Assembly: GCA_024636005.1 (NCBI GenBank)
Contig: JAGXHV010000032.1
Location: 38,201-102,200 of the forward strand
Origin: Bacillota bacterium
Lineage (GTDB): Bacteria; Bacillota; Clostridia; Peptostreptococcales; Acidaminobacteraceae
Length of the DNA stretch: 64,000 nt
Reading direction: 5' to 3'
Shown here: in pieces, positions 5,847 through 42,818 of the stretch
How the letters are laid out: the number at the start of each line of letters is the position of its first letter
Numbering within the stretch: the first letter of the stretch is position 1
Notes under the pieces: model-generated
Databases searched by the model: none
What the model was told of the DNA's origin: nothing
What the model saw: only the letters and a program-made list of their open reading frames with translations
Made by a program: the position numbers and the translations under genes

Positions 5847-6439
5847 GTATTTGGAATTTGTATGAAAAGACATATGAAAAACTTTGGGTTCAGCATATAT
5901 CTCTTAGACCGACCAGAAAAGCGGTGATCAGAGCACTCTCTAGTTTACATTTGCCAGAGAACACGCTGCTTGATATGAGTTGTGGTACGGGTCAGTTGCT
6001 TGATGATCTAAAAAGAGATTTGCCTGAAATTAAATGTATGGGTGTGGAACCGTCATTAATGAGACGCGCTGCGGCCTCCAAAGGTCATAAAATTCTTGAG
6101 AGCAATGTAGAGCATTTTGAATCCACTGAAAAATTTGGATGTATCGTGTGCACTCACGCATTTCCATACTTCTCGGATCAGCAAGACGCCATTTCCAGAT
6201 TTTCAGAGCATACGCTTCCTGGTGGATATCTGATTATCGCTCATGCTGAGACAAAAACAATATATGATCTACTCATGCTAAAGATTGTGAAACTAACAAC
6301 TTCAAAAGCGAATTATCCGGCACCTTCAAAGATGAAAGAGCTTTTGGAACCTTATTATAAAATATGTGACGTGGTAGAAATCAATGCTTGGTACGTCCCA
6401 AGCATCACAATGTATGTCGCGCGAAAAGGTGAATTATGA
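5843..6439 (+). CDS. Class I SAM-dependent methyltransferase (small)
   Basis: 198-residue Rossmann-fold methyltransferase. Motif I LLDMSCGTGQLL begins near residue 41 and motif II acidic position is in MGVEPS. The middle VCTHAFPYFSD and GGYLIIAHAE match motifs IV-VI of UbiE/Methyltransf_11-type enzymes. It lies between the two acyltransferases and the radical SAM genes and overlaps both neighbours by ATGA, so it is translationally coupled. Because the downstream enzymes carry B12/SAM machinery for difficult carbon methylations, this one more likely does a conventional O-, N- or C-methylation in the same pathway (inference). Confidence 0.8.
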   Translation: MSIWNLYEKTYEKLWVQHISLRPTRKAVIRALSSLHLPENTLLDMSCGTGQLLDDLKRDLPEIKCMGVEPSLMRRAAASKGHKILESNVEHFESTEKFGCIVCTHAFPYFSDQQDAISRFSEHTLPGGYLIIAHAETKTIYDLLMLKIVKLTTSKANYPAPSKMKELLEPYYKICDVVEINAWYVPSITMYVARKGEL

Positions 6440-7764
6440 AAATCGTACTATTGCGCCCAAAACCAGATTCAGAAACCATTGGACTCCAGCATGTCATGAT
6501 CTGTGAGCCGCTTGAACTTGAGTATGTAGGCGCAGTTCTTGAAAAAGATCACCAAGTGGTGCTCTATGATATGATTCTTGAAAAAAAGACTATTGAAGAA
6601 ATCATCGCTATTGAGATGCCCGACATGGTTTGCATGACCGGTTACATTTCTCATGTGAATATCCTGATGGATTACAGCAGTAGGATCAAACTGATCAATG
6701 ATAGGATATTGACTGTGGTCGGGGGCGTTCATGCAGAGGTCATTCCTGAGGATTTTGAAAAAGGTTCGTTTGATTACATCATTTCCGCCAATCCGCTGGA
6801 TCATATCGTATCCATTGCAAATGGCACCGTTTATCCAAGAATCATCAAAGCTGTGAAATCGAGAACATTTGAGTACTCGCATCCTGCAAGACATCTTGTA
6901 GACCGTTACAGAAAAGACTACTATTACATGTTTCACAATCCGTGCAGCCTCATCAAGACCTCTTATGGTTGTCCATACAATTGTTCGTTTTGCTTTTGCA
7001 AGGCCATCACGGACGGGAAATATTTCACAAGGCGAGTTGAAGATGTGATTGAGGAACTAAAAACGATTGATGATGAAGAAATCTATATTGTGGATGATGA
7101 CTTCCTTTATGATGAGAAGCGGTTGACAGCTTTTTGCGATGCTGTTGAGGCACATCAGATCCACAAAAAATACTTAGTATACGGTAGAGCGGATTTCATT
7201 GCGGAACATCCGGAAATGATGAAAAGACTTAAAGGTGTCGGTCTTCGTGCGGTGATTGTTGGGCTGGAATCTTATTCGAATAAAGATCTTGACAGCTATA
7301 ATAAGAACAGTCAAATAGGTGCGAGCATCGCTTGCATAGAATTGCTCAATGCAATGGATATTGAATGCTATGGGACGTTTATCATTGGACTGGACTGGAG
7401 AAAATCAGATTTTAAATCACTTAGACACTTCATTGTTCAGACAGGGATCCAGTTTGTGAATCTTCAGCCACTTACACCAATGCCGGGAACCAGTTTGTAT
7501 GAAAGTACTAAGAAAGATTGGATTGTCAAAATGGATGATTTTGCCAAATGGGATATGGCTCATCTGGTGCTTCAGCCTGAACACCTATCCATAAGGCGAT
7601 ATTATTTTGAAATCGTCAAACTCTATTATAGAGTGACTCTAAGACCTACAATGGTCATCAGAGCGCTTAAAAAATATCCATTCAAGGAAAACATCAAACT
7701 AACCATCGGCGCAAACAGAGTGATGTGGCAGTATATCAAAAGAATAATAAAGGGGCAACCATGA
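6436..7764 (+). CDS. B12-binding domain radical SAM protein (paralogue A)
   Basis: 442 residues. The N-terminal third is a cobalamin-binding Rossmann domain (PDMVCMTGYISHVN, TVVGGVHAE). It lacks the D-x-H-x-x-G histidine ligand, as is usual for B12 radical SAM enzymes. The radical SAM cluster motif is CPYNCSFCFC (CxxxCxxC) near residue 180, followed by the aspartate-rich strand IVDDDFL and a TIM-barrel half with YGRADFIAEHPEMM. A C-terminal helical tail of about 90 residues follows the LTPMPGT motif. It is closely related to the genes at 9093 and 10468. Such enzymes methylate or rearrange unactivated carbons; the substrate here is unknown. ATGA overlaps link it to both neighbours. Confidence 0.88.
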   Translation: MKIVLLRPKPDSETIGLQHVMICEPLELEYVGAVLEKDHQVVLYDMILEKKTIEEIIAIEMPDMVCMTGYISHVNILMDYSSRIKLINDRILTVVGGVHAEVIPEDFEKGSFDYIISANPLDHIVSIANGTVYPRIIKAVKSRTFEYSHPARHLVDRYRKDYYYMFHNPCSLIKTSYGCPYNCSFCFCKAITDGKYFTRRVEDVIEELKTIDDEEIYIVDDDFLYDEKRLTAFCDAVEAHQIHKKYLVYGRADFIAEHPEMMKRLKGVGLRAVIVGLESYSNKDLDSYNKNSQIGASIACIELLNAMDIECYGTFIIGLDWRKSDFKSLRHFIVQTGIQFVNLQPLTPMPGTSLYESTKKDWIVKMDDFAKWDMAHLVLQPEHLSIRRYYFEIVKLYYRVTLRPTMVIRALKKYPFKENIKLTIGANRVMWQYIKRIIKGQP

Positions 7765-9080
7765 AAAAGAAAATCTTATTGATTCAACCCTCTCCTTATG
7801 CACCGGATGGCAATGTAATCAAGAAAAAAAGGCTTCATTTCGTTGGTCTATCACTTCCGCTTATCGCAGCATTGACGCCGGACAACTATGAAGTAGAGCT
7901 CATATATGAAACCATAGAAGAAATTCCATGGCACACGGAAGCTGAAATCATAGGTATATCCTCCATGGGACACGGTGTGCATAGAACCATCGACATCGCA
8001 AAAGGCTTTAAGGCTCTTGGTAAAACAGTGGTTCTAGGGGGTTATATGGTCAGTCTTTTGCCTGAAGAGGGGCTTAAATACGCAGATGCGGTGTTTGTTG
8101 GTGATGTGGAGACTTCATGGGGAATCTTCCTAAGTGATTATGAGACAGGTTTGATCAAGACAGTTTATGATATGCCGCTTACCGAGTATTCTCCACCTTT
8201 ACCGCGCTATGAACTGATTGCACATAAGAAAATTGGGAGTTTTCTACCTGTGCAAGCCGGCAGAGGTTGCGTGAACCATTGTTCTTTTTGCTCGGTGGCA
8301 TGCCTCTATCAAGGGCGCTATTTAAAAAGACCTGTTGATGAGGTCATGAGAGATATAAAAGAAGTCAGGAGACTGGGGTACAAACAGTTTTTACTGCTCG
8401 ATGACAATATTTTTTCAGACCGAGTTTATACGAAGGCACTGTGCGAGGCGATTAAACCTTTGAAGATGAAGTGGATGACGCAATGCACTGTGACCATAGG
8501 AGACGATGTGGAGCTGCTCAGGCTCATAAAGGACAGCGGGTGTATCGCACTCTCTTTTGGTCTCGAGAGCATTACACAGAGCAGCCTGGACGGCATGGAT
8601 AAGCCTTGGGCCAAAGTCAGTGAATATGAGAGGTTGATCAAGGCAGTCAGAGATGAGGGGATTCAGGTTTCGACAGAGATGGTGGTCGGGGCAGATGGTG
8701 ACACACTCGAATCCATTAAAAACACAGCCAAATTCATCAATGACCTTAAGATTGCAGTGCCTCGTTTTTATATTTTGACACCGATCCCTGGAACACTTTT
8801 TTTTCATCAGATGAGCGATGAAAATCGAATTTACAATAAGGACATCTATTCATATAATGGGGCTGAGGCTGTTCATATCCCCAAAAACATGTCTCCTGAG
8901 GAACTTACAGATGCATACTGGGCGCTTTATAAGGAGGTTTTCAGTTATAAGAACATCATAAAGCGGACGGTTTTTCAAAAAGGATTTTTCGTGAATCCAC
9001 TTTTGTCAGTTTTTTATCTGTACATCAATCTTTATTATAGGCATCAGATCTTTAGGGGAATCACCCCGAATATAATTTAA
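7761..9080 (+). CDS. B12-binding domain radical SAM protein (divergent type)
   Basis: 439 residues, translated from the ATG at 7761 after aaagggg; the track start at 7725 lies inside the previous gene. The N-terminal B12-type domain has IIGISSMGHGV and VVLGGYMVSLLPEEG. The radical SAM motif CVNHCSFCSV is near residue 175, followed by RYLKRPVDEVMRDI and LLLDDNIF, then FGLES and PIPGT. These are the hallmarks of the large BchE/P-methylase/hopanoid-enzyme group. It is clearly more distant from the other three radical SAM proteins of the operon than they are from one another, so it probably performs a different step. The tail (YLYINLYYRHQIF) is short and aromatic, possibly membrane- or lipid-facing (inference). 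Confidence 0.87.
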   Translation: MKKKILLIQPSPYAPDGNVIKKKRLHFVGLSLPLIAALTPDNYEVELIYETIEEIPWHTEAEIIGISSMGHGVHRTIDIAKGFKALGKTVVLGGYMVSLLPEEGLKYADAVFVGDVETSWGIFLSDYETGLIKTVYDMPLTEYSPPLPRYELIAHKKIGSFLPVQAGRGCVNHCSFCSVACLYQGRYLKRPVDEVMRDIKEVRRLGYKQFLLLDDNIFSDRVYTKALCEAIKPLKMKWMTQCTVTIGDDVELLRLIKDSGCIALSFGLESITQSSLDGMDKPWAKVSEYERLIKAVRDEGIQVSTEMVVGADGDTLESIKNTAKFINDLKIAVPRFYILTPIPGTLFFHQMSDENRIYNKDIYSYNGAEAVHIPKNMSPEELTDAYWALYKEVFSYKNIIKRTVFQKGFFVNPLLSVFYLYINLYYRHQIFRGITPNII

Positions 9081-9092
9081 TGAGGAGCGGAC

Positions 9093-10466
9093 ATGAAAAT
9101 TCTTTTGGTCAGACCTTGGGTGAATAAGAACATCACAACAGTAAAGAATTACTTGTTTGGAGAACCTATGGGTCTCGAATGCTTTTCTACGCTTTTAAAA
9201 GAGAATGGTGTGGAGGTGCTACTTGTGGATTTCATGGTGGAGACAAAAGCCGCCGTTGAAACCTATCTGAAAAGTTTCAGACCGGATGCGGTGGGCATCA
9301 CTTCACAATGCACTGATGTCGAGAACGTCAAAGAGATTGCAAAAGCAGTGAAACTTTACTGTAAAACGACTCCGGTCCTGGTCGGTGGGGTTCAAGCATC
9401 CTGTTTCCCGAATGCCTTTTTTGTACCCGAAGTGGATTATGTATTCAAGTCAACCACGCGTAAAAATGTAAAAGAGGTTTTAGAGGAACTTATAGGCGGT
9501 TCAAATCTCGAGCAAATCGAGGGCATCTATAAAAAATCACACGATTATATCAATGAAGGTGAATTTTGCTACAACGAATATGTCGTTCCTGATCGCAGCT
9601 GCACTGAAAAATACCGAAAATCCTATAAATATGTAGGGTATCAACCATGTGCCATCGTTCAAACCGCCTATGGTTGCAGAAACAGATGCACGTTTTGCAT
9701 ACGCTGGAAAATTGAAGGCGGTGAGCTGAGGGAAGTGCCTATTGCTGAAATTGTCGATCAGATTGCCGCTCTAAGTGAGCCTTATGTGATGATCTGTGAC
9801 AATGATTTTCTGATCAACGCATCGAGACTTCTATCATTTTGTGATCTACTCGAAGCCAGGGGCGTTAGAAAAGAATTCATTTGTTATGGCAGTGTGAATA
9901 GCATTCTTGAAAAACCTGAGCTGATGTCCAGACTTAGAAGAAGCGGATTGGTGGCAGTGATTGTGGGCTATGAAGCTTTTGAAAACAAGCAATTGTCGAT
10001 TTACAACAAAGCGTCGACCATAGATGACAACGAGAAGGCGACATCAATACTTAAAGCAAACGGCATCGCATGTTGGGGGTCGTTCATCTTACATCCGGAC
10101 TGGACAAAAAAGGATTTCAAAAAACTGCTGGATTACCTTGATTATCTGAAACCTGAACTCGCCACTTTTTCACCTCTGGTTCCACATCCCATGACGCCAC
10201 TGTATGAAACCTATAAGGATCGTCTGCTTTATGATGCTGATGATTACGACAAATGGAATTTTGGAGATGTGCTCATCCGTCCATCCAAGATGAGTCTCAA
10301 GGCTTACTACTGGGAAGTGCTTAAGCTCAGTCTCAAAATCAACGGGAATTTTTACAGCGTCAGGTATACTCTGAAGGCATTTCCTATAACAAACACCTTG
10401 AAAATGATCACAGGATTCAATACTCTTTTTGCCATTTACATTAAAAATATGCTGACGAGGAGATAA
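9093..10466 (+). CDS. B12-binding domain radical SAM protein (paralogue B)
   Basis: 457 residues, starting after gaggagcgg 12 nt behind the previous stop. The B12-type N-terminal domain has DAVGITSQCTDVENV and LVGGVQASCFP, with no histidine ligand. The cluster motif CRNRCTFCIRW is near residue 200, followed by MICDNDFL and the paralogue-shared block YGSVNSILEKPELMSRL ... VIVGYEAF ... YNKAST. The PHPMTPLYE region and the C-terminal block AYYWEVLKL...LKAFPI align by eye with paralogue A (RYYFEIVKL...LKKYPF), which points to duplication within the operon. The IRWKIEGG sequence after the cluster differs from A and C (C-[KT]-x-x pattern), so the substrate pocket may have diverged. Confidence 0.87.
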   Translation: MKILLVRPWVNKNITTVKNYLFGEPMGLECFSTLLKENGVEVLLVDFMVETKAAVETYLKSFRPDAVGITSQCTDVENVKEIAKAVKLYCKTTPVLVGGVQASCFPNAFFVPEVDYVFKSTTRKNVKEVLEELIGGSNLEQIEGIYKKSHDYINEGEFCYNEYVVPDRSCTEKYRKSYKYVGYQPCAIVQTAYGCRNRCTFCIRWKIEGGELREVPIAEIVDQIAALSEPYVMICDNDFLINASRLLSFCDLLEARGVRKEFICYGSVNSILEKPELMSRLRRSGLVAVIVGYEAFENKQLSIYNKASTIDDNEKATSILKANGIACWGSFILHPDWTKKDFKKLLDYLDYLKPELATFSPLVPHPMTPLYETYKDRLLYDADDYDKWNFGDVLIRPSKMSLKAYYWEVLKLSLKINGNFYSVRYTLKAFPITNTLKMITGFNTLFAIYIKNMLTRR

Positions 10467-10467
10467 A

Positions 10468-11772
10468 ATGAAAGTATTGCTCGTGAGACCAGAAGTGCCC
10501 AATCTATTCAAATATGCGAATTTGATCACATGCGAACCCCTTGAGCTGGAGTACCTTTATACTGAAATCACAGCCCTTGGACATAGTGCACTTATTTTTG
10601 ATGGCGTATTGGATAAGAAAGAATATGTAAAAATTCTTGAAGAATTTGGTCCTGATTTAGTTGCCATCACGGGGTACATCACTCAAGAGAATTTGATGAA
10701 AGCATATGCGCTCGAGGCCAAAAGACACAATCCACACGTTCTGACTGTGGTGGGAGGTGTCCACGTACAGCTCAATCCAGAGCGGTTCAAAGTGAGAGGT
10801 ATCGATTATATCTTTCGGAGTGAATCCATGAAAGCTTTTGGAGCATTATTGGATGCACTTGCAAGTGGGAATAGTGTTTTAGAGCCAATTAATGGGTTGA
10901 TGTATAGAGACATGGACGACTGGATAGAAAATGCACTCAATCCAGCGGATATTGACGAACTTTCTATTCCAGACCGATCCTATTTTTATACCCATATGGA
11001 AAGATACAATTATTTGGACCTGAACGCCGTGGCAACCATCAAAACTTCATTTTCATGTCCTCACAACTGTAACTTTTGTTACTGTACAAAACTTGGAGGT
11101 GGGGTTTATAACGCAAGGAACCTCGATTTGGTCATAGAAGAACTGGTTGGAATCGGTTCTGAAAACATCTTGATTGTAGACGATGATTTTCTCGCGGATA
11201 TAAGTCGAACTGAGCAGTTTGTGAAGCGGGTCGAAGAAGCAGGACTGAAAAAAAACTATATCTGCTATGCGAGAGCGGATGCTGTAGCTGAAAGTCCACA
11301 GCTGATCAAAGATATGGCTGAGATAGGCTTCAAATATTTCATTGTGGGACTTGAAGCCATCACAGATATGGATTTGAAGAGTTATGACAAAATGACGACT
11401 GAAGACATCAACCGTAGATGTATTGAGAATATACATGCTACAAGTGCAGAGGTTATAGCACTCATGATGATTTCACATAAAGCAACCAAAGATGACTTTA
11501 AGGATCTGTACAGATGGGCAAAAGAAAATAAACTCAATTATACTACCGTATCTATTTTTACACCAATACCAGGAACTCCATTATATGAAATTCATAAAGA
11601 TGAGATCACAAGTAAGAAGATTGAGCATTGGGATTTTCTGCATTTGGTACTGAAGCCGGAAAATATGAACAAGTTCCAGTTCTATTTTCATTTTATAATG
11701 CTTTCTTATAAACTCTACAGATATGGGAAAAAAACTGGTGGATTCGATTTCAGAAAGAAAAGCCAAGAGTGA
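10468..11772 (+). CDS. B12-binding domain radical SAM protein (paralogue C), last gene of the operon
   Basis: 434 residues with the start one base after the previous stop and gaggag upstream. N-terminal B12-type domain: DLVAITGYITQENL, TVVGGVHVQLNPE. Cluster motif CPHNCNFCYC near residue 196, then LIVDDDFL, YARADAVAESPQLI, FIVGLEAI and TPIPGTPLYE. Of the other two paralogues it is nearest to A (both have the GYI motif in the B12 domain and an FC[FY]C after the third cluster Cys). Its last codons (KKSQE) coincide with the left copy of a direct repeat that also forms the downstream terminator, so the C terminus may have been altered by an insertion there. Confidence 0.87.
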   Translation: MKVLLVRPEVPNLFKYANLITCEPLELEYLYTEITALGHSALIFDGVLDKKEYVKILEEFGPDLVAITGYITQENLMKAYALEAKRHNPHVLTVVGGVHVQLNPERFKVRGIDYIFRSESMKAFGALLDALASGNSVLEPINGLMYRDMDDWIENALNPADIDELSIPDRSYFYTHMERYNYLDLNAVATIKTSFSCPHNCNFCYCTKLGGGVYNARNLDLVIEELVGIGSENILIVDDDFLADISRTEQFVKRVEEAGLKKNYICYARADAVAESPQLIKDMAEIGFKYFIVGLEAITDMDLKSYDKMTTEDINRRCIENIHATSAEVIALMMISHKATKDDFKDLYRWAKENKLNYTTVSIFTPIPGTPLYEIHKDEITSKKIEHWDFLHLVLKPENMNKFQFYFHFIMLSYKLYRYGKKTGGFDFRKKSQE

Positions 11773-39501: not shown

Positions 39502-39945
39502 ATGTTTCATAATGAGATCAAAAAAAAGCTTCGAACACTCAAACAACAAGAAATTGGAATCCGCACCAATTACGGTGGCATAGAAGCGAACGGGATTCGA
39601 TTGATTTGGGATCAATATTTCTCGACAAAGACGATTGATGACCAAACAGTGAAATACAGCCTCAAAAAACTATCTGAAATGAATCATGATGATCGAAAAG
39701 AGGTTTTTGACGCTTTTTTTTGCTCTGTATTCATCCAACATTATAAAGAAAACGGTATTCCAGTCACAGATATGTTTGATATGAGCCTGTTATCTTATTT
39801 TGGGTTACCTGCAACGGCAACAATGGAAGATATAAAAAGTCGTTTCAGACATCTGGCGAAGATCAACCACCCAGACAAAGGTGGCAGCTCGGATGTATTC
39901 ATAGAGATTTTAGATGCATATGAGCAATTGACTTCAAAATTCTAG
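39502..39945 (+). CDS. Small protein with C-terminal J domain
   Basis: 147 residues. A DnaJ-type J domain occupies about residues 93-147 at the C terminus, with the HPD motif in INHPDKGG (stimulates DnaK ATPase). The N-terminal 90 residues are a helical, charged region I do not recognise. Canonical DnaJ has the J domain at the N terminus plus zinc-finger and client domains, all absent here, so this is a specialised co-chaperone resembling DnaJ-like type III proteins. Start ATG at 39502 after gaggtgcgg. Its stop overlaps that of the convergent sortase gene through the shared CTAG. Confidence 0.8.
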   Translation: MFHNEIKKKLRTLKQQEIGIRTNYGGIEANGIRLIWDQYFSTKTIDDQTVKYSLKKLSEMNHDDRKEVFDAFFCSVFIQHYKENGIPVTDMFDMSLLSYFGLPATATMEDIKSRFRHLAKINHPDKGGSSDVFIEILDAYEQLTSKF

Positions 39946-40697
39946 TCCTCAATGGCATGTATGATCATCCTGCCATTTTTAGTTTCATAGCTGCATGTCG
40001 CAAGAGTCAATAGGGCTTTATCTTCACTGAAGATAAAGCCTTTTTTATGCATGGAATAGGACATCAGAGTCTGCAGGTAACTCTCATAATCTAGACCTTG
40101 GAAATTAATCTCAAGTTTGTAATCATCAGCGGATACAATATAAGCGGAAAAAATGGTATAGGTTTTCTCTCCATATAGACCACTTATTTTAATTGTGTCA
40201 TGAGTATTGAAATAGGTTTCTTCCTTATACTCGTGTAAGCCACCAAACATGGTTCCATTTTTCATGTAATGCCCATAGATGATGGTGTGCTGATCATTGA
40301 ATTGACCAAGGTTTCTATAGTCCATGAAAATCGCTCCAGCATCACTGCTATTTTTGTAAATATCTTTATTCAGATAAAAGGCGTTGTCTATACCTCTGAG
40401 AACTGGATAATCTATTATTGTGTCAGAGATTTCAATCCAACCTGTAAAATCAGGATTTACTGCTAGATACTCTAAATTTTTATTGGGCTTATAATCATAC
40501 TTGCTGTTTTTCGGTTCAATGGGAAGTTCTATCGATTCCACTTCTTCCACGATATCCGTCGTTCTATTGACAATGAGTTGTGAGACTTCATCTTCAGACG
40601 CCTTTCTCTGGATGAGTATTGAACCGCTAACAATAGCTATTATTATCAACAGAATAATAGAACTATTAAGGAAGAATTTTTTTTGATTTTTAGTCAT
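39942..40697 (-). CDS. Class B sortase
   Basis: 251 residues. Transmembrane anchor at residues about 9-30, then the sortase fold. Catalytic His is in TIIYGHYMKNGTMF, Cys in LATCSYET, Arg in NGRMIIHA, spaced as in SrtB-type enzymes. Sortases cleave an LPxTG-like motif and attach the protein to peptidoglycan; the divergent neighbour at 40859 carries LPQTG, the only obvious substrate in this window. The start at 40697 follows gagaggtgatt. Promoter and Fur-box-like site lie in the shared intergenic region. The class is inferred from overall similarity, not from a structural comparison. Confidence 0.88.
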   Translation of the reverse strand: MTKNQKKFFLNSSIILLIIIAIVSGSILIQRKASEDEVSQLIVNRTTDIVEEVESIELPIEPKNSKYDYKPNKNLEYLAVNPDFTGWIEISDTIIDYPVLRGIDNAFYLNKDIYKNSSDAGAIFMDYRNLGQFNDQHTIIYGHYMKNGTMFGGLHEYKEETYFNTHDTIKISGLYGEKTYTIFSAYIVSADDYKLEINFQGLDYESYLQTLMSYSMHKKGFIFSEDKALLTLATCSYETKNGRMIIHAIED

Positions 40698-40716
40698 TGT
40701 AATCACCTCTCGATTC

Positions 40717-40745
40717 ATTTTATCACGTTAAGAAATAAAAATCAA
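40717..40745 (-). promoter_or_regulatory. Promoter of the sortase gene
   Basis: On the minus strand TTGATT, 17-bp spacer, TAAAAT; predicted transcription starts just before the gagaggtga binding site. Confidence 0.55.
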
Positions 40746-40751
40746 ATTAAT

Positions 40752-40766
40752 TGAAAATAATTCTCA
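40752..40766. promoter_or_regulatory. Fur-box-like palindrome between sortase and fasciclin genes
   Basis: TGAAAATAATTCTCA matches the 7-1-7 Fur consensus TGATAATNATTATCA at 12 of 14 fixed positions. It lies 6-7 nt outside the -35 elements of both divergent promoters. Confidence 0.55.
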
Positions 40767-40773
40767 ATTTAAG

Positions 40774-40802
40774 TTGACAATAATCACAATAAGTGATATA
40801 TT
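40774..40802 (+). promoter_or_regulatory. Promoter of the fasciclin gene
   Basis: TTGACA, 17-bp spacer, TATATT, 56 nt before the ATG at 40859. A weaker Fur-like sequence overlaps the -35 region. Confidence 0.65.
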
Positions 40803-40858
40803 ATGATCATAAAATAACTTAGTGTGATTTAAAGATATAATTTTGAAGGAGGATTACC

Positions 40859-41896
40859 ATGAAAAAGATTTTAAGTATTATGATGAGTTTGTTATTATTA
40901 ATCAGTGTACCAACATTTTCAGCAGAAGGCGATATAGTGGACATAGCAGCAGGAAATTCGGATTTCAGTATTTTAGTAGCGGCGCTCCAAAAATCGGAAC
41001 TCGTCGGAGCACTTCAAGGTGATGGACCATTTACAGTCTTTGCACCGACGGATGCAGCTTTCGTCAAACTGCTTGGAGATTTGGGTATAGAGGCTGAGGA
41101 TCTTCTCAATCATCCACAGCTTAGTGAAGTACTATTATATCACGTCGTATCAGGTAAAGTAATGAGCACTGATTTATCAAATGGTCTTGAAGCATCGACT
41201 TTAAGTGGAGAAGCCATCAAAGTGGATTTGACAGACGGTGTTAAAATTAATTCGTCAAATGTAGTTACAGCAGATATTGAAGCGACAAACGGTGTGATTC
41301 ATGTAATTGATGAAGTATTGGTTCCTAGTTCATTCGTACTCAGCCCACCAAGTGTTCCAGAAACTGTAGTTGACATAGCTCTTTCAAGTGAAGATTTCAG
41401 CATGCTGGTATCATTGCTACAAAAATCAGACTTAGTAGGCGCATTACAAGGTGAGGGTCCATTTACAGTATTTGCACCTACAAACAAAGCCTTTGAAGAT
41501 TTACTTGCAGCTCTAGGCATTTCAGCGTCAGATCTTATGGCACAACCTGACCTCGCAAAAGTATTGCTCTATCATGTGGTCTCTGGAAATGTACTCAGTA
41601 CTGATCTTAGTAATGGTCTTGAAGCTGCTACACTGAACGGTGAATCTGTTAAATTTGACCTATCAGATGGAGTGAAAGTAAATTCAAGTGGTGTTGTTGC
41701 GGCGGATTTAGTAGCACAAAATGGTGTTGTACACGTAGTCGATTCAGTTTTGGTACCAAGCAATTTCGTTTATCAAGCAGTAGAAGCTGATGAAGAATTG
41801 CCACAAACTGGAACAATGGATTTGACCTCCATTTTTATATTCAGTATAATAGGATTAGCAGCCGTGATGGTTGTAAAAAAAAGAGTGAAAGCATAA
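40859..41896 (+). CDS. LPQTG-anchored surface protein with two fasciclin (FAS1) domains
   Basis: 345 residues: signal peptide (LSIMMSLLLLISVPTFSAE), two FAS1 domains (about residues 24-155 and 168-305), then LPQTG, a hydrophobic segment and KKRVKA, a complete cell-wall sorting signal. The FAS1 domains share the GPFTVFAPT signature and the SGNVLSTDLSNGLEA and GVIHVIDEVLVPS type blocks, so they arose by duplication. FAS1 proteins mediate adhesion or cell-cell contacts. The divergent class B sortase is probably its anchoring enzyme. Start ATG after gaaggagga. The next gene, an XRE-B12 regulator, is 12 nt downstream and likely in the same operon. Confidence 0.93.
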   Translation: MKKILSIMMSLLLLISVPTFSAEGDIVDIAAGNSDFSILVAALQKSELVGALQGDGPFTVFAPTDAAFVKLLGDLGIEAEDLLNHPQLSEVLLYHVVSGKVMSTDLSNGLEASTLSGEAIKVDLTDGVKINSSNVVTADIEATNGVIHVIDEVLVPSSFVLSPPSVPETVVDIALSSEDFSMLVSLLQKSDLVGALQGEGPFTVFAPTNKAFEDLLAALGISASDLMAQPDLAKVLLYHVVSGNVLSTDLSNGLEAATLNGESVKFDLSDGVKVNSSGVVAADLVAQNGVVHVVDSVLVPSNFVYQAVEADEELPQTGTMDLTSIFIFSIIGLAAVMVVKKRVKA

Positions 41897-41908: not shown

Positions 41909-42778
41909 ATGAGTGATTTCGGCACACGTCTTAAGAATATACGTAAACTCAAAAAAATGACTCAAAAAGAATTGGCGGAGATGTTGAATGTCACACAGTC
42001 TACTATAGCAAATTATGAAAGCAATCTGAGATTTCCAGGAGAAGCAAACCTGAAGGAAATTTCAGATTTGCTTCATATCAGTTCAGATTATTTATTGGGT
42101 ATAGCAGAAGAAACCAAAACCGTGAAAGCTACGGGCGTGGTGGATCTGATGAAGTTAAAAGAGGATTTGCTGGAGGCTTTACTGAAAAGTGATGAGTCCT
42201 TAGCTACAAAAATTGTAATAGAATCTTATGTAAACGGTGCTGTGACACATGAAGTCATTGATCAGGTTTTTCACCCTATAATGGTCGAGACGGGGCGTTT
42301 ATGGGAAACTGGAAAGCTGGACATCTCTCAGGAACATTTCATATCTGACGTTGTAGAAAGATTGATTTCATTGATTGGTATTCAAATGTCTACTGATGAT
42401 TTCAAACACACGGTAATGTTGATCTCACCAAGTGGCGAGGAACATGTCCTTGTTCTAAAAATGATGAAGGAAATATTTCTTGAGGAGGGATGGCGGGTCT
42501 TTAACCTAGGTAAAAGCATTCCTGTCGCAAGTATTGCGTTCTTAATTGAAAAAGAAGACATTGATTTGATTGCCATTTCCATCACTGGAAAAAACAATCT
42601 CAATGGAGCGGAGCACCTTATTTCAGCCATTAGAAACCTTGGAATTTTTAAAATTCCCAAAATAATGGTCGGAGGACAAGCTGTGGAAAGTGAAGTACAA
42701 GCAAAAGTATTTTTGGGTGCTGATTATTATGCATCTTCTTTCTCGGAAATGAGGAAAATCGCATTGGAACAATTTTAA
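41909..42778 (+). CDS. XRE-type HTH regulator with CarH-like B12-binding domains
   Basis: 289 residues. XRE/Cro helix-turn-helix at about residues 6-58 (LKKMTQKELAEMLNVTQSTIANYE). Next is a four-helix B12-cap domain containing LWETGKLDISQEH, which is the W-x9-E-H signature of CarH/LitR photoreceptors. A cobalamin-binding Rossmann domain follows, with E-x-H (SGEEHVLVL) and VGGQ. In CarH the upper His ligand lies in the W-x9-EH helix and adenosylcobalamin makes the repressor light-sensitive. Here the MerR-type HTH of CarH is replaced by an XRE HTH, and the ExHxxG glycine is Val. Light or B12 sensing is a proposal. It lies 12 nt behind the fasciclin gene. Confidence 0.85.
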   Translation: MSDFGTRLKNIRKLKKMTQKELAEMLNVTQSTIANYESNLRFPGEANLKEISDLLHISSDYLLGIAEETKTVKATGVVDLMKLKEDLLEALLKSDESLATKIVIESYVNGAVTHEVIDQVFHPIMVETGRLWETGKLDISQEHFISDVVERLISLIGIQMSTDDFKHTVMLISPSGEEHVLVLKMMKEIFLEEGWRVFNLGKSIPVASIAFLIEKEDIDLIAISITGKNNLNGAEHLISAIRNLGIFKIPKIMVGGQAVESEVQAKVFLGADYYASSFSEMRKIALEQF

Positions 42779-42783
42779 ATTTT

Positions 42784-42818
42784 ATGCCACACCAGTTCTA
42801 TAGTTGGTGTGGCATTTT
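42784..42818 (+). terminator. Rho-independent terminator
   Basis: ATGCCACACCA pairs with TGGTGTGGCAT, followed by TTTT; after the XRE-B12 regulator. Confidence 0.75.

Follow-up and report, generated by a model that had tools for sequence, protein, structure and literature searches.

A photoreceptor-type B12 pocket fused to an XRE DNA-binding domain, encoded behind a fasciclin gene and a divergent sortase in Clostridia

Genes and features at the locus

The window, by which we mean the whole 64,000-nucleotide stretch of DNA analysed here, carries a class B sortase gene, a divergent gene for a fasciclin (FAS1) surface protein and, directly behind the latter, a gene for a regulator that joins an XRE domain to a cobalamin (B12)-binding half. 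The features are the following.

39942..40718, minus strand: class B sortase (Pfam Sortase; TIGR03064, 176 bits against a cut-off of 153.75)
40717..40745, minus strand: sortase promoter, TTGATT-17-TAAAAT
40721..40737, no strand: putative operator O2, TATCAC-GTTAA-GAAATA, within the sortase promoter's 17-bp spacer
40774..40802, plus strand: promoter of the FAS1/regulator operon, TTGACA-17-TATATT, 11/12 matches
40782..40798, no strand: putative operator O1, AATCAC-AATAA-GTGATA, between the -35 and -10 boxes and directly against the latter
40813..40829, no strand: possible third half-site, AATAACTTAGTGTGATT, weak (3 mismatches)
40859..41896, plus strand: FAS1 surface protein, first gene of the operon, with two FAS1 domains (E 3e-67) and an LPQTG sorting signal
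41909..42778, plus strand: XRE-B12 regulator, 289 aa, described from Pfam domains, alignment and an AlphaFold2 model
Regulator residues 8-62: N-terminal XRE helix-turn-helix (HTH), followed by a linker at about 63-80
Regulator four-helix cap: contains G129xxW132 and E142H143
Regulator Rossmann B12 domain: contains G176EEH179 (lower axial His) and G201xxxP205
42784..42815, plus strand: intrinsic terminator, a 14-pair stem and T run directly 3' of the regulator

Exactly 12 nt separate the end of the FAS1 gene (41896) from the start of the regulator (41909), as a sequence-only reading of this DNA had stated. With a promoter ahead of the FAS1 gene and the terminator behind the regulator, the two look like one two-gene operon, which agrees with the regulator/adhesin operon proposed in that reading; the divergent class B sortase, the strong terminator and the operator pair are additions to it. 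For the sortase, the second ATG at 40697 (RBS AGAGGTG) is the more likely start, since the first ATG and the proposed -10 box share bases.

A signal peptide is recognizable by eye in the FAS1 protein, and its tail is composed of LPQTG, a hydrophobic stretch and KKRVKA. With 15.4 bits, the protein falls just short of the LPXTG model's cut-off of 15.9, and the earlier description of an LPQTG fasciclin is thus borne out partly by eye. Taken together, the FAS1 domains, the LPQTG and the class B sortase point toward a sortase-anchored FAS1 adhesin. FAS1 orthologues beside the regulator are 63-95% identical. Carotenoid binding by this protein, by analogy with AstaP, was considered and is unsupported; a cyanobacterial FAS1 homologue does not bind carotenoids (PMC10147662). 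Elsewhere in the window (6436-11772), four genes in a row resemble B12-binding radical SAM proteins by eye, with CxxxCxxC-like motifs.

The regulator and its cobalamin pocket

The open reading frame at 41909-42778 is not a chance one: two congeneric genomes encode the regulator with 87% identity over 289 aa, and its architecture recurs in many genera of the order. Pfam identifies HTH_3 at residues 8-62 (E 3e-14; 53.2 bits against a cut-off of 23), which places the protein among XRE-family regulators, together with B12-binding_2 at residues 84-154 (E 4e-11) and B12-binding at residues 169-273 (E 2e-11), both above their curated cut-offs. The Pfam MerR models give marginal scores only, below cut-off, as expected from the proposal that XRE replaces the usual MerR HTH. 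The regulator is an XRE helix-turn-helix fused to a complete cobalamin-binding domain. Its motifs are G129RLW132, W132-x9-E142H143, G176EEH179 (that is, E177-E-H179), G201KSIP205, S224IT and VGG at 254-256, and all of the W-x9-E-H, E-x-H and VGG elements read from the sequence alone are among them.

GxxW, EH, GxxH and GxxxP form the signature of light-responsive cobalamin-binding domains that was derived and tested by Yu et al. (PMC11796333). All four elements are found in the regulator (G129-W132, E142H143, G176-H179 and G201-P205). Across 30 aligned XRE-B12 proteins, G129, W132, E142, H143, H179 and G201 are invariant in the B12 half and P205 is kept in at least 90%, which leaves the signature residues as approximately the sole fixed positions of this half; the single variable signature position is the glycine of GxxH. 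The residue after the Trp, corresponding to His132 of TtCarH, is E133 in the regulator and is never His in the 30 relatives. His132 is likewise absent from CtMerR (Arg), SasPcob (Gln) and AbDPcob (Tyr), yet these proteins are photoactive (PMC11796333). With the signature in place and photoactive proteins known that lack His132, the pocket is predicted to bind adenosylcobalamin (AdoCbl) and to support its photochemistry; a Cob(I)alamin adenosyltransferase is encoded in the genome. TtCarH H132A is unable to monomerise (PMC11796333), so the loss of His132 in the regulator could mean weak or no release.

Best sequence matches among solved structures are the photocobilins 8j2w/8j2x, then the B12 domain of CtMerR (8jbs), with CarH weaker. 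An AlphaFold2 model built from the 30 aligned relatives (pLDDT 89.5) retrieves photocobilin, CtMerR and CarH in the same order, and its B12 part superposes on photocobilin 8j2w with a TMq of 0.64 and an rmsd of 2.3 A over 205 columns. Methyltransferase corrinoid proteins superpose worse on the model (rmsd 7-9 A). Judged from the model, the closest structural matches of the B12 part are B12 photoreceptors. An accidental fusion of a methyltransferase corrinoid protein to XRE is rejected on the basis of this fold and of the lack of Wx9EH in most of the 218-230 aa corrinoid control proteins scanned, the exceptions being the B12-domain proteins of loci L064 and L066-L068.

CarH/LitR from Thermus thermophilus and Myxococcus xanthus share with the regulator a four-helix cap and Rossmann B12 domain, Wx9EH, ExH, a one-component design, an operator overlapping the promoter, and a carotenoid gene beside some relatives. 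Unlike them, the regulator has an XRE domain where they have MerR, Glu at the His132 position, a palindromic operator and a sortase/FAS1 target. Compared with the CarH motif ExHx2Gx41SxV/Tx22-27GG, E177xH179 is present with V182 at the Gly position, and S224xT226 is correctly spaced with GG 28 residues on (22-27 in CarH). In the FAS1-linked branch described below, the ExHxxG glycine is mostly replaced (V, I, S or P), which counts against a light-released repressor; a photocobilin with P at this position, SasPcob, is still photoactive. The NCBIfam CarH equivalog NF052513 yields 48.8 bits against a cut-off of 400. Of the proposed CarH-like photoreceptor, the AdoCbl pocket signature therefore stands, while the missing MerR domain, the missing His132 and a score far under the cut-off rule out a plain CarH orthologue: the regulator is CarH-like in its pocket only.

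CtMerR of Chloracidobacterium thermophilum (8jbs/8jbt) is the second-best distinct fold match and carries the full signature, but has a MerR DNA-binding domain. The photocobilins (SasPcob, 8j2w; AbDPcob, 8j2y) match the B12 part best in both sequence and fold, but possess a bilin-binding globin-like domain and no XRE. The regulator has no bilin domain and its N-terminus is XRE, which separates it from photocobilins and photoglobins. The same genome also encodes a 374 aa protein (L002:1033-2157, on G000:C105) that carries every element of the B12 light-response signature and, at its N-terminal end, matches Phycobilisome weakly. It is probably a sensor of the photocobilin/photoglobin-like kind, and proteins built in this way are seen in many genomes of the class. 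Together with the regulator, the genome may thus own two B12 light sensors.

A shared palindrome in the divergent promoters

In the window, the FAS1 promoter reads TTGACA ATAATCACAATAAGTGA TATATT and the sortase promoter TTGATT TTTATTTCTTAACGTGA TAAAAT, with O1 and O2 lying 61 bp apart, centre to centre. We compared seven divergons (the window, L038, L040, L042, L043, L050 and L069), and in 7/7 both promoters follow one plan, a -35 box, a 17-bp spacer holding TATCAC-N5-GTGATA and a -10 box, with the right half of the palindrome abutting the -10 box. As an exception, the sortase-side -35 box in L042 is one base out of place. The O1-O2 distance is 61-62 bp in six of the seven loci and 42 bp in the other, near whole helical turns. 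A site within the -35/-10 spacer is in a position fitting a repressor.

Against shuffled sequences, the best site has a P of 0.026 or less in each locus. Of 21 other XRE-B12 genes, 10 have the motif (at most 2 mismatches) in their 200 bp of upstream sequence, versus 16 of 258 control genes from the same loci (P 1.5e-6, relatedness ignored), and the 16 motif-bearing controls are mostly FAS1 or sortase genes. In three sortase-FAS1 divergons without the regulator the motif is absent (best 3-4 mismatches). Shuffles, control genes and regulator-free divergons together rule out a chance operator. From the co-occurrence of gene and site, we infer that the XRE-B12 protein itself binds TATCAC-N5-GTGATA.

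A single exact ATCAC-N5-GTGATA occurs in the 2.54-Mb genome of the window, at the FAS1 promoter. Genome scans with the operator revealed no wider regulon, the inspected matches being intragenic or without a downstream gene, and the sortase/FAS1/regulator module looks local in the genome. Between O1 and O2, at 40752-40766, TGAAAATAATTCTCA resembles a Fur box (TGATAATNATTATCA), and a Fur-like box with one mismatch is present in L038 and L043; iron control of the divergon via this box is possible.

Distribution and conservation of the gene block

Matches to the regulator are found in 24 of the 41 genomes of the family, mostly full-length XRE-B12 proteins. Others are scattered over families of the order, and one was found outside it, in genome G544. 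A public genome scan retrieved two close MAG relatives only, and a plasmid collection gave weak B12-domain matches and no XRE fusion.

The search for the same architecture and its neighbors that the sequence-only reading had called for shows the regulator-adhesin pair to be conserved, so the proposal survives this check. A sortase B gene, a divergent FAS1 gene and the regulator directly behind FAS1 recur in L038 (same genus), in L040, L042, L043 and L050 (other genera of the family) and in L069 (another family), that is, in five genera besides the window's own and in two families, which rules out a chance pairing. The block varies in its details: the FAS1 protein of L043 has three FAS1 domains, and in L050:5650-8938 the regulator sits between two near-identical FAS1 genes sharing promoter and operator sequence. 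In L073 the order differs, with sortase and regulator together and FAS1 divergent, and the regulator belongs to another branch.

In a tree of 32 proteins (MAFFT/IQ-TREE), the window protein falls in a branch of nine (support 93/90), within which eight members neighbor a FAS1 gene or its remnant, so that the FAS1-linked regulators make up one branch with a single unlinked member. The remnant belongs to the congener G022, where FAS1 is degraded (L200; G022:C29:7500-9200), with a stop in the signal peptide and a large internal loss; there the operator is lost and the XRE-B12 gene intact. Both this and the presence of a regulator without FAS1 in G020 count against the repressor model proposed below. 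Conversely, three loci (L109-L111) of f6/g26 hold a sortase-FAS1 divergon without regulator. In G001, a congener of L050, the FAS1 genes break at contig ends, so a gap in the assembly may explain why no regulator is seen there.

Neighbors of related regulators

A UV endonuclease gene (UvdE/UvsE) lies directly behind the XRE-B12 regulator in L198:4665-6806, from G544 of another order, and is again the next gene in L072:6860-9091, the two belonging to distant lineages. In L074:5050-7706, a CrtI-family phytoene desaturase (488 bits against a cut-off of 238) is divergent from the regulator, with degenerate candidate operator sites (3 mismatches) ahead of both genes. UvdE, seen twice, and phytoene desaturase beside relatives point toward light.

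Another set of XRE-B12 genes is directly followed by AcrB-type RND pumps, in ten loci (L044, L047, L048, L049, L051, L052, L053, L054, L055 and L057; seven by Pfam and three by size and position). Several of these genes carry the same palindrome in their own promoter, and they possibly represent a B12- or light-controlled efflux branch. That many relatives are linked to RND pumps and not to photoprotection counts against a light response. Genes for B12 uptake or synthesis were not seen among the identified neighbors. In L045:2595-3314, a separate B12-binding protein is encoded divergently from the XRE-B12 gene and precedes an apparent permease and ABC ATPase, a layout repeated in L046.

Proposed mechanism and alternatives

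With modest confidence, we favor an AdoCbl-dependent, autoregulated XRE repressor with a photoreceptor-type pocket that is released by light and controls FAS1 and sortase display; its AdoCbl binding, light response, DNA binding and repression, and adhesion by the FAS1 protein, we infer from the comparisons above. In the dark, AdoCbl-bound oligomers would occupy O1 and O2 and fill the -35/-10 spacers of both promoters, shutting the FAS1 and sortase units, the regulator's own gene included. Light would break the Co-C bond of the bound AdoCbl. As no His stands next to the Trp, the released state would probably resemble that of CtMerR and the photocobilins, with aquo/hydroxo-cobalamin, a rearranged pocket and movement of Glu/His, and would not be bis-His. 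The repressor would then leave the DNA, allowing joint production of the FAS1 adhesin and its presumed anchoring enzyme, the sortase, and fresh repressor co-produced with FAS1 would reset the circuit. As output, a cell exposed to light and oxygen would alter its surface, through aggregation or attachment. Light (or B12) thus probably controls surface display in these Clostridia. More tentatively, and with slightly less than even confidence, we view the XRE-B12 proteins as a distinct Clostridia lineage of light-released repressors without bis-His ligation, acting on a spacer palindrome, of which one branch drives FAS1/sortase anchoring.

The main rival, which we regard as unlikely but worth serious consideration, is a dark B12 sensor. 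Light would play no part in it; the repressor would respond to how much AdoCbl is present, or to AdoCbl as opposed to other cobalamins, and in these anaerobes the surface module would be under the control of cobalamin or metabolism. TtCarH requires AdoCbl to assemble its dark tetramer (PMC10442372), and the level of AdoCbl can therefore serve as a signal by itself; the presumably anaerobic Clostridia hosts, the missing His132 equivalent and the RND pumps in ten loci fit this explanation. Against it, conservation falls on the Wx9EH/GxxxP set with which photoreceptors cap the Ado group, relatives adjoin UvdE and phytoene desaturase, and the identified neighbors lack B12 uptake or synthesis genes.

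Less likely still is a sensor of light plus oxygen (photooxidative), or of redox state, in which photolysis sets Co(II)/Co(I) and only oxygen completes the switch. Full CarH photoconversion needs oxygen, TtCarH stopping at Co(II) without it (PMC10442372), and CtMerR lit without oxygen rearranges and stays oligomeric (PMC11796333). That the hosts are Clostridia therefore counts against the light-released repressor as worded above; in an anaerobe the two cues may be sensed jointly, as exposure to lit, oxic conditions, which refines the favored mechanism and does not oppose it. Fasciclins belong to RpoE-ChrR photooxidative regulons (PMC7074977, PMC10949492), which also speaks for light as the signal in the favored mechanism: in Rhodobacter sphaeroides, photooxidative stress induces RSP_1409 (PMC7074977), and in Azospirillum a fasciclin controlled by RpoE-ChrR brings about flocculation, according to work cited in PMC10949492. 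These systems share with ours a FAS1 protein under photooxidative control and, in Azospirillum, the link to flocculation, but they are Gram-negative and use an ECF sigma factor and a singlet-oxygen signal, with no sortase and no B12.

A vestigial or apo-functional regulator, with B12 irrelevant and the XRE part sensing something else, is very improbable: Myxococcus CarA, which binds B12 yet represses without it (PMC8156234), is a precedent and the ExHxxG glycine is changed in the FAS1-linked branch, but CarA lacks Wx9EH, whereas here Wx9EH and the lower axial His are invariant in 30 sequences.

Coupling of a B12 photoreceptor domain to an output domain is already known, and HTH outputs are mentioned in general (PMC11796333). 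In the open-licence literature, outside which most subscription papers lie, we found no description of XRE-B12 photoreceptors, their operator or a CarH/sortase/fasciclin link, and no light or B12 experiment on any XRE-B12 protein, the latter being counted against the favored mechanism. The sequence-only reading held that light- or B12-dependent control of surface adhesion would be new; RSP_1409 and the Azospirillum protein are precedents for light-linked fasciclin control, and what would be new is a B12 photoreceptor-type repressor in this role.

Significance

To our knowledge, where a B12 photoreceptor with a DNA-binding domain has been characterised it is a MerR protein, and the link is mainly to carotenoid genes; photobiology has hardly been studied in Clostridia. 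The locus described here places a photoreceptor-type pocket on another DNA-binding fold; its operator can be read, and its output, a surface adhesin and sortase, is clear. It offers a small system in which control of cell adhesion by light or B12 can be tested, and a natural test of B12-sensor switching without the bis-His state. It may also supply a green-light promoter part whose operator is a simple palindrome. If true, the proposed mechanism would amount to B12-based switching of the bacterial surface by light.
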